A stretch of 48,371 nucleotides of DNA from Desulfobulbaceae bacterium (GTDB lineage Bacteria > Desulfobacterota > Desulfobulbia > Desulfobulbales > Desulfocapsaceae), in assembly GCA_004796425.1 (NCBI GenBank), contig QZLB01000182.1:1-48371 (forward strand). Direction: 5' to 3'. Within the stretch, counting starts at the first letter, position 1, and each line of letters begins with the position of its first letter. The translations under genes were made by a program, and so were the position numbers. A model generated the notes under the pieces. That model was not told where the DNA came from, made no database searches, and saw nothing but the letters and a program-made list of their open reading frames with translations. This document shows positions 14,836 to 16,409 of this stretch, piece by piece.

Positions 14836-16167
14836 TTATGGCATGATTATTGGACAATCACATTCAGGATCACTGATATCAAGGAGTAAAAACTTCACAT
14901 CATAACCGTTTTTAACCAGTTCGCGATATGCTAAGTCTGCCCGTGCGCCTGTAGAACAGTGAACAAAAATGCGCTTGTCCTTTGGAATGTCAGCCATTCT
15001 TTTTGGTATTTCATCAAGTGGAATATTCACGGTGTTAGTAAAAATACCAAGTTCAGCGATTTCATCAGGCGTTCTCGCATCTATCACGTAGGTATCAGGA
15101 AGTTCTCCATTAACCGCCTTTCTAAATTCAGCAACGGATACCTCTCCCTTGCCAAGTTTTCGTACCCATCTGATTTCCGTAGAAAAGATTGGGCCTTTTT
15201 CTATTTCTCCACCAGAGGCAACCCAACCCTGATAATTCCCTTTCACAAGAGATACGTTTTTGAACCCTTCGTACCTCAGATCATCAAGCGCATCGAGCGC
15301 CTCTTCATCATCATCACTGTAAAGAACGACAGGTGCGTTGCGAGGGATATCATCAATTCGTTCTTCCAGTTGATCGTAATTTACATGAACTGATCGAGGT
15401 ATGCGGCCCTCAACTGCACTCCCGTCATCTCTAAGATCGATCAGGACAATATTTCCTTTTTGAATAAATTCTTGAGAAGCGTAGAGGGGGTGACCAGCTT
15501 TGCTCCATGCAGGCTCACCTGCCAGATAGCCACGAACATTTGTATAACCAAATTTTTTCGCCAGACCGGCGTTAGAAGAGGTCATACCTCACGTGTAACC
15601 ACCACAATAAAAAACGAGTAGTTTGTCTTTGTCATCTGGTAGCACCGAAGCTTTCTTTTCTTTTAACTTGGGTACAGGAATGCTGACAGCACCGGGTAAG
15701 TGTGCCTGGTCGTATCTACTTTTGGGTCGTGCATCAACCAGGAACAGATCGGCTCCATTGGCCATGAGCTCATACAATTCTTCGGTTTGAATTTCTGTCA
15801 CACCTTCAGGTAGCTTGGCCAGTTTTGGTTTGATAACAGTGGCAAATTTATCTTCTCCCCGCTGTTCCCACTGAATAATTGCAGCCTCACCCTTGGCTGC
15901 ATATTCTACACCTTTAGTGTTTTCATCAAAACGTACCATCATGGTTTTGGCTGTGTCGCCTTTACCTACCGTAATGGATATGGTCTTTGCTTTGTTAGAT
16001 TTGCCGACAACCGGTCCCTTAAAGACGTTTTCAGATTTAGTTTCAGCTGCTGCTTTTGCTGGTTGGGCGGCTTGCTTAACTTCGGCCGTCTGCTTTCCAC
16101 AGCCCCAGGTGAAAAGCATTAACAGCGTGAGCTGCAGAACGAAAAAGAGTTTCAATTTTTTTTGCAT
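14836..16167 (-). CDS. Selenocysteine-containing triple-rhodanese lipoprotein (in-frame UGA = Sec193)
   Basis: Read through one UGA (15591-15589) this is a 443-residue exported protein. The N-terminus (MQKKLKLFFVLQLTLLMLF, then TWGC with C23) looks like a lipoprotein signal, though the lipobox is not classical. Rhodanese domain 1 (about 125-220) contains DARPKSRYDQAHLPGA and the loop FYCGGYT-Sec-GMTSSNAG, then KFGYTNVRGYLAGEPAW. Domain 2 (about 232-310) has lost its Cys (loop YSDDDEE). Domain 3 (about 335-430) has a canonical HCSTGARA loop with C404. The same frame, family and fold continue across UGA, and a SECIS-like hairpin follows. Relatives carry Cys at the Sec position. Start: ATG 16167 after AGGGGG. 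Likely a periplasmic sulfur or selenium transfer or redox protein; the substrate is unknown. Ordinary gene calling would yield two pieces, 15589-16206 and 14836-15585. Confidence 0.87.
15553..15591 (-). promoter_or_regulatory. Bacterial SECIS element and UGA of the rhodanese gene
   Basis: On the minus strand UGA (15591-15589) is followed after 21 nt by a hairpin with the stem CGCC/GGCG and the apical loop GGUCU (15567-15563). Further U-A pairs extend below an A/A internal loop. Loop sequence and distance agree with bacterial SECIS elements that recruit SelB; the E. coli fdhF loop also contains GGUCU. Confidence 0.82.
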
Positions 16168-16409
16168 GAATGACCCCCTGTTTTTTTGGTTAATGTTAGC
16201 ATGCAATATTAGAGATTAACTATATAGCTAAAAAGTTAAATTGTATAGGTGTATTTTGTCTAAAATAATCTTCTTTTCAAAAAAGTTTAGCACAAACACC
16301 ACCAGATTTTAAAATGAGATTTTTGCGTAATTTAAGGAGTCCATTAGAGAAAAATTGAGGATTTGTGATAAATTGTTGTGTTATCAATAATGTATGAATT
16401 AACTAGAAT

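Follow-up and report, generated by a model that had tools for sequence, protein, structure and literature searches.

Rhodanese domains typically handle sulfane sulfur. A periplasmic example is Sud of Wolinella, a small, single-domain rhodanese without selenocysteine (Sec), which passes sulfane sulfur to the Psr-type polysulfide reductase PsrA.

A 2022 review credits the first rhodanese-like selenoproteins to the 2005 bSECISearch paper (PMC9312934), and a study of deltaproteobacteria includes a rhodanese-like domain in its list of Sec proteins (PMC8318568). A 2026 review, in its excerpted text, distinguishes five rhodanese-like selenoprotein forms with the motifs UxxS, UxxG, CxU, UxxG, and UxxxxU (PMC13188914). 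In the Desulfobacterota, it is not settled how sulfur disproportionation and polysulfide use proceed in the periplasm, and rhodaneses are named as candidates for periplasmic sulfur steps in the available portions of several studies (PMC3739170, PMC9751629, PMC13047784). Nine rhodaneses are counted in the Desulfocapsa sulfexigens genome (PMC3739170), and periplasmic rhodaneses are described as strongly expressed in Desulfurivibrio alkaliphilus in work on cable bacteria (PMC13047784). The excerpted part of a 2026 survey gives no apparent link between SseA-type rhodaneses and disproportionation (PMC12998232), which cautions against over-reading the disproportionation idea. Supplements aside, the main texts contain no “seleno” (PMC3739170, PMC9751629, PMC12998232) and no “selenocysteine” (PMC13047784).

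The window, meaning the whole stretch of DNA that was analysed (48,371 nucleotides of a Desulfobulbaceae contig), contains two minus-strand open reading frames (ORFs), 15589-16206 and 14836-15585, which share one frame and are separated by TGA plus one GGT codon. The original prediction took them for one gene read through UGA, with Sec at position 193, five residues after Cys188. Counted from the ATG at 16167, the Cys188 codon (15606-15604) and the UGA (15591-15589) do lie at these positions, which confirms the original observation. This ATG is the likely start of the selenoprotein gene and follows AGGGGGT (16173-16179, minus strand), a stretch resembling a ribosome-binding site by eye. The TTG at 16206, where the first ORF opens, was rejected as an only mechanical start. 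The resulting gene (14836-16167, minus strand) runs over 443 codons to a TAA at 14838-14836 and includes a single in-frame UGA. We consider it to be one selenoprotein gene encoding an exported rhodanese, with a probability of roughly 0.95; sequence alone could hardly make the call more secure, and selenium insertion is what we infer from it.

The 443-residue product, of about 48 kDa, matches the Pfam Rhodanese family (PF00581) in three stretches, with 144.1 bits against a cut-off of 22.2. The AlphaFold model, built from 25 sequences with C in place of U (mean pLDDT 85.0), folds into a beta domain followed by three rhodanese domains. The N-terminal beta domain (15826-16026, about residues 48 to 114) has five strands in the model and matches no Pfam family above its cut-off. 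Rhodanese domain 1 (15499-15786, residues 128 to 223) is the best Pfam stretch, aligns to known rhodanese domains with Z scores of up to 17.6, and holds both Cys188 and Sec193. Here, Cys188 (15604-15606) directly follows the strand of residues 183 to 187 and residue 193 comes just before the helix of residues 195 to 205, placing both in the active-site loop. A profile alignment places Cys188 opposite the Cys in a YCGG loop of PDB entry 6mxv, with residue 193 falling into a two-residue insert. According to alignment and model, domain 2 (15214-15474, about residues 232 to 318) carries LYSD at the place of the catalytic Cys and therefore lacks one. Domain 3 (14890-15153, about residues 339 to 426) has the loop Cys404-S-T-G-A-Arg409, so that the catalytic loop Cys is present in domain 1 (Cys188-x4-Sec193) and domain 3 (Cys404-x4-Arg409). 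Its match to the rhodanese domain of the NADH-dependent persulfide reductase 3ntd has a Z score of 14.9.

Among the described selenoproteins, form 1 (UxxS, WP_010941598.1) appears to resemble the window protein in combining PF00581 with one Sec in a U-x-x-S/T motif; compared by its described motif, it may belong to the same family (PMC13188914). The window protein reads UGMT at this place, and most relatives have the Ser of UxxS. Two NCBI models also match domain 1. The form 3 model rhodanese_LYCAU (NF041203, CxU), a rhodanese-related (seleno)protein, scores 61 bits where its cut-off is 115 and differs in spacing, its Sec lying two residues after the Cys and that of the window protein five. 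The form 5 model TsoB (NF045694), a rhodanese/DsbD fusion-like, rhodanese-domain selenoprotein, reaches 58.9 bits where 805 are required, and the review lists this fusion with two Sec, whereas the window protein has one. Since rhodanese-like selenoproteins are an already listed kind in the excerpted review (PMC13188914), the window protein is a well-supported new member of it. Literature searches returned no paper joining Desulfobulb*, rhodanese, and selenoprotein, “triple rhodanese” was not found among the matches listed, and the only match for “rhodanese-like selenoprotein” concerns algae in its available text. The family layout, the heme-motif relatives, and the operon link described below were not found in the literature searched, which includes partial texts.

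A protein search covered 93 genomes from the bacterium's own family, and 73 of them gave a match at 1e-20. From 164 loci, 119 distinct aligned cores were obtained, the window's included. In one search the best 80 of 221 relatives were kept, eight short partial matches of the family-level search were not extracted separately, and order-level matches were mostly extracted only where other searches also gave them. Three paralogues (L102 to L104) have the domain 1 loop YGVGGCLS without the Cys-x4-Sec pair and retain Cys404 and Arg409; they were left out of the Sec/Cys counts, leaving 116 sequences. Cys188 is invariant in these 116 loop rows, and Cys404 and Arg409 are present in 115, the remaining row being a fragment that ends earlier. 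In the alignment of 25 members, Cys188, position 193 (counting U as C), Cys404, and Arg409 are all invariant.

The signal peptide of the original prediction stands as an export signal and can be refined to a lipoprotein-like one. It covers 16099-16167 and ends in FTWGC with Cys23, an imperfect lipobox judged by eye and with a loose pattern. This pattern occurs in 86 of the 104 main-group rows of the own order. We read the product as exported and probably lipid anchored. A heme-like motif is found in only one of these 104 rows. A sample of 198 genomes from across the phylum gave matches at 1e-30 or better in 21, 15 of them outside the order; 12 of these 15 are full length, ten with TGA and two with Cys. 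All 12 carry C-x2-4-CH after a signal-like stretch (nine CxxCH, three Cx4CH), and three of them also show the loose lipobox pattern. The clade L093 to L101 has the C-x2-4-CH motif in eight of nine rows, and the eight rows L085 to L092 have neither the lipobox pattern nor the heme-like motif. From the motif, these relatives are predicted to bind heme. The three-rhodanese layout, the lipobox-like signal, the heme-motif relatives, and the members in other orders go beyond the original prediction. Eight family genomes (G035 to G038, G063, G064, G066, and G092) have, in addition to the window-type gene, a more distantly related second copy (L093 to L100) that carries TGA, SECIS, and CxxCH.

No recognised sulfur genes or operon surround the window gene or the loci of 64 near relatives. 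By our own reading of the names, purD/purE-like and Sua5-like ORFs are present at 23 of the 64 loci and an ABC-F-like ORF at 18. Each of the two Cys members outside the order belongs to a row of genes on one strand, in which a DUF3373 gene lies upstream of it and the gene for a twin-arginine molybdoenzyme downstream. The best fit for the molybdoenzyme is the PhsA thiosulfate reductase model, at 520.1 and 552.2 bits under a cut-off of 694, and it matches the DMSO/selenate reductase models more weakly. Next comes an NrfD-type membrane protein and, in one locus, also an iron-sulfur protein resembling TtrB/DsrO. A LysR regulator, the only one tested, scores above the cut-off of a multiheme-cytochrome-associated family. 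These neighbours of the Cys members support a role in respiratory turnover of sulfane sulfur or oxyanions, a role that is unproven for the Sec forms. They also offer a parallel in working to Sud and PsrA, with the two Cys members beside a Phs/Psr-like enzyme. Unlike that pairing, the genome of the window has no PhsA match above the cut-off: three matches at 1e-30 fall below it, two of them with one in-frame TGA.

We tentatively propose, at somewhat less than even odds, that the protein works in the periplasm, either as a carrier of sulfane sulfur or as a persulfide reductase, by means of the Cys/Sec pair. Sulfane sulfur from polysulfide, thiosulfate, or elemental sulfur would be loaded as a persulfide on Cys404 or directly on Cys188. 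The Sec193 selenolate would attack the persulfide at Cys188, so that HS- is set free and Cys188 and Sec193 end up joined as a selenenylsulfide. This bond would then be re-reduced by electrons of the periplasm, coming from the protein's own heme in the distant relatives and from another donor in the window's protein. The invariance of Cys188, position 193, Cys404, and Arg409 favours this reaction, as does the heme-like motif of all 12 full-length members outside the order, two of which are encoded beside a PhsA-like enzyme with NrfD-type subunits. Against it count the lack of sulfur neighbours at the window gene, the lack of PhsA above the cut-off in its own genome, the restriction of the Phs/Psr-like neighbours to two Cys forms, and the 2026 survey that sees SseA-type rhodaneses as unconnected with disproportionation (PMC12998232).

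The selenoprotein might also serve a different job, such as reduction of oxyanions (selenite or tellurite), thiol repair, or peroxide removal, which we regard as rather unlikely. The comparison that brings this up is ExtH of Geobacter (GSU2940), like the window protein a rhodanese-like lipoprotein, of about 49 kDa. ExtH is encoded in a conduit-like porin-cytochrome cluster with the porin ExtI, which selenite and tellurite reduction require to proceed normally, and the available text names Sec for ExtKL, not for ExtH (PMC5877670, PMC6148476). The weaker match of the two neighbouring molybdoenzymes to the DMSO/selenate reductase models points the same way. However, ExtH is likened to the window protein by description only, the best model for the neighbouring enzyme is PhsA, though below its cut-off, and rhodanese domains as a rule act on sulfane sulfur.

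Sulfane-sulfur handling could extend to the whole family, although this wider picture is doubtful. It would be an exported triple-rhodanese family of several lineages of the phylum with a Cys-x4-Sec pair, originally wired to a covalently bound c-type heme, that acts on extracytoplasmic sulfane sulfur by reduction or oxidation, and the window's lineage would have lost the heme and gained a lipid anchor. If so, the family would be a cytochrome-linked persulfide oxidoreductase whose gene is split by UGA-stopping gene callers in sulfur disproportionators and sulfate reducers. The heme-motif relatives and the Phs/Psr-like neighbours of the two Cys members make it testable whether Sec, sulfane sulfur, and the flow of respiratory electrons are connected. 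Since a UGA-stopping gene caller splits the protein, annotation-based surveys could miss the catalytic loop.

The Sec assignment itself depends on how the UGA is read. At codon 193, the 119 cores comprise 99 with TGA, 13 with TGC, four with TGT, and the three paralogues without the loop. All 17 of the 116 loop sequences lacking TGA thus have a Cys codon, as anticipated for Cys homologues, and none has TAA or TAG. On the tree of the 116 rows, the Sec/Cys state changes seven times, at least six of the changes being forced by well-supported branches, and repeated change from Sec to Cys is the simplest reading of this tree. Most full-length relatives from the family-level search have exactly one in-frame TGA, at the same codon among those extracted, which argues that it does not occur by chance. 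Cultured carriers of the TGA form include Desulfofustis glycolicus DSM 9705 (L114) and Desulfogranum japonicum DSM 18378 (L131). Two Cys forms (L061 and L160, in G080 and G086) differ from the Sec-type hairpin in essentially a single pair and therefore probably represent recent Sec/Cys changes. The copies G010:C236, G081:C78, and G043:C42, which have an additional TAG, a TAA, or a split between two frames, are broken genes or assembly errors.

If the UGA were a true stop, the product would be an exported protein of 192 residues, with the second part left untranslated or restarted at the ATG at 15585. Such a restart is conceivable, with an ATG one codon past the UGA and Met common at this place in the Sec forms (87 of 96 windows). 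The reading is nevertheless highly improbable: the frame is preserved across the codon in the relatives, the UGA is exchanged for Cys codons in the 17 sequences above, and, according to the structure model, the protein would be cut within the active-site loop of domain 1.

The RNA downstream of the codon also argues against a stop. A stem-loop, CGCC-GGUCU-GGCG (15559-15571, minus strand), occupies bases 21 to 33, with T of TGA as base 1; bases 21 to 24 pair with 30 to 33 around a five-base loop, GGUCU, which is also the loop of E. coli fdhF. The stem-loop lies 18 to 30 nucleotides past the UGA. The 99 Sec cores give 96 distinct Sec windows, and all 96 have the four pairs and G at base 26. In the 17 Cys windows the pairs are intact in four and broken in 13, and pairs and G occur together in one. 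Under synonymous recoding (500 rounds), an average of 8.7 and at most 19 of the 96 stems stayed intact, far below what is retained. With 12 windows of further order and phylum members added, the stem is present in 108 of 108 Sec windows, and two pairs show changes on both sides. In this set, 432 of 432 cells are paired, compared with a mean of 416.9 and a maximum of 421 in 2000 shuffles that ignore relatedness, and sliding the partners by one to three bases gave no full stem. The relatedness problem of the shuffles is answered in part by an independent-pairs test on the tree, a small test of six pairs in which stem and Sec coincide in an average of 5.1 and run counter to each other in none (median p 0.0625). 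The stem-loop is thus under constraint in the Sec forms. The hairpin of the window itself is not unusually stable in a single-sequence fold (z -0.40), and scanning the 401-base loop region against Rfam produced two matches at chance level and none to a SECIS. For the original prediction, which proposed a SECIS search, this means that every Sec form examined has a stem-loop after its UGA, while Rfam did not recognise it.

A sequencing or assembly error, or a UGA read as some other residue, is next to negligible despite the 330-contig draft state of the genome, since an error would not recur across dozens of assemblies as the identical TGA does in 99 of 116 distinct sequences, a non-TGA codon that is always Cys fits Sec and not Trp, and TGA ends eight of the 25 long ORFs of the window (at least 250 codons from an ATG), so that the genetic code looks standard with UGA not generally reassigned. 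As far as sequence allows, an error or another residue at the UGA is thereby ruled out.

The reading of UGA as Sec193, supported by the UGA/Cys exchange and the constrained stem-loop, also finds the required machinery. In this reading, the codon is decoded by SelB and tRNA-Sec, directed by the stem-loop at 15571-15559. The genome of the window contains selA (615 bits), selB (363.9 bits), selD (358.9 bits), and selC, a tRNA-Sec with the anticodon tca (73.8 bits), so that absence of the machinery does not speak against it. Across the order, selA is present in 211 of 257 genomes and has no match in 46. Fourteen of these 46 were examined, all of them carriers of the TGA form; selA exceeded the cut-off in none, with a 54-bit fragment in one, and selB matched at 1e-50 or better in 13 and over the cut-off in 11.

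In G038, selA adjoins an rRNA operon containing a run of N. The gene next after selA in G038 passes into a stretch of N in the closed selA-less genomes G027, G036, and G037, and in G079 a contig begins at this gene. In these four, the selA gap most likely reflects sequence that was masked or left unassembled. An alternative pathway to Sec in the selA-less carriers was set aside, given the N runs and the contig start where selA is expected. No such neighbour gene was found in G023, G051, and G065. G065, a carrier and a 94% complete draft, has neither selA nor selB (selB at 1e-50), and G023, in two contigs, has selB with selA not found; these two genomes weigh mildly against the selenoprotein reading.

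In three closed genomes of the order (L204, L205, and L206, from G038, G028, and G162), selA is found near rRNA genes, and this adjacency may be why selA lies near contig ends in many drafts. The selD of the window's genome (L048, G000:C311:2-904) itself has one in-frame TGA; Sec-containing SelD is known. The two PhsA matches of this genome with one in-frame TGA each, molybdoenzyme-like frames (L258 and L259, G000:C88:16981-18066 and C48:14055-15545), are perhaps, at a guess, Sec formate dehydrogenases.
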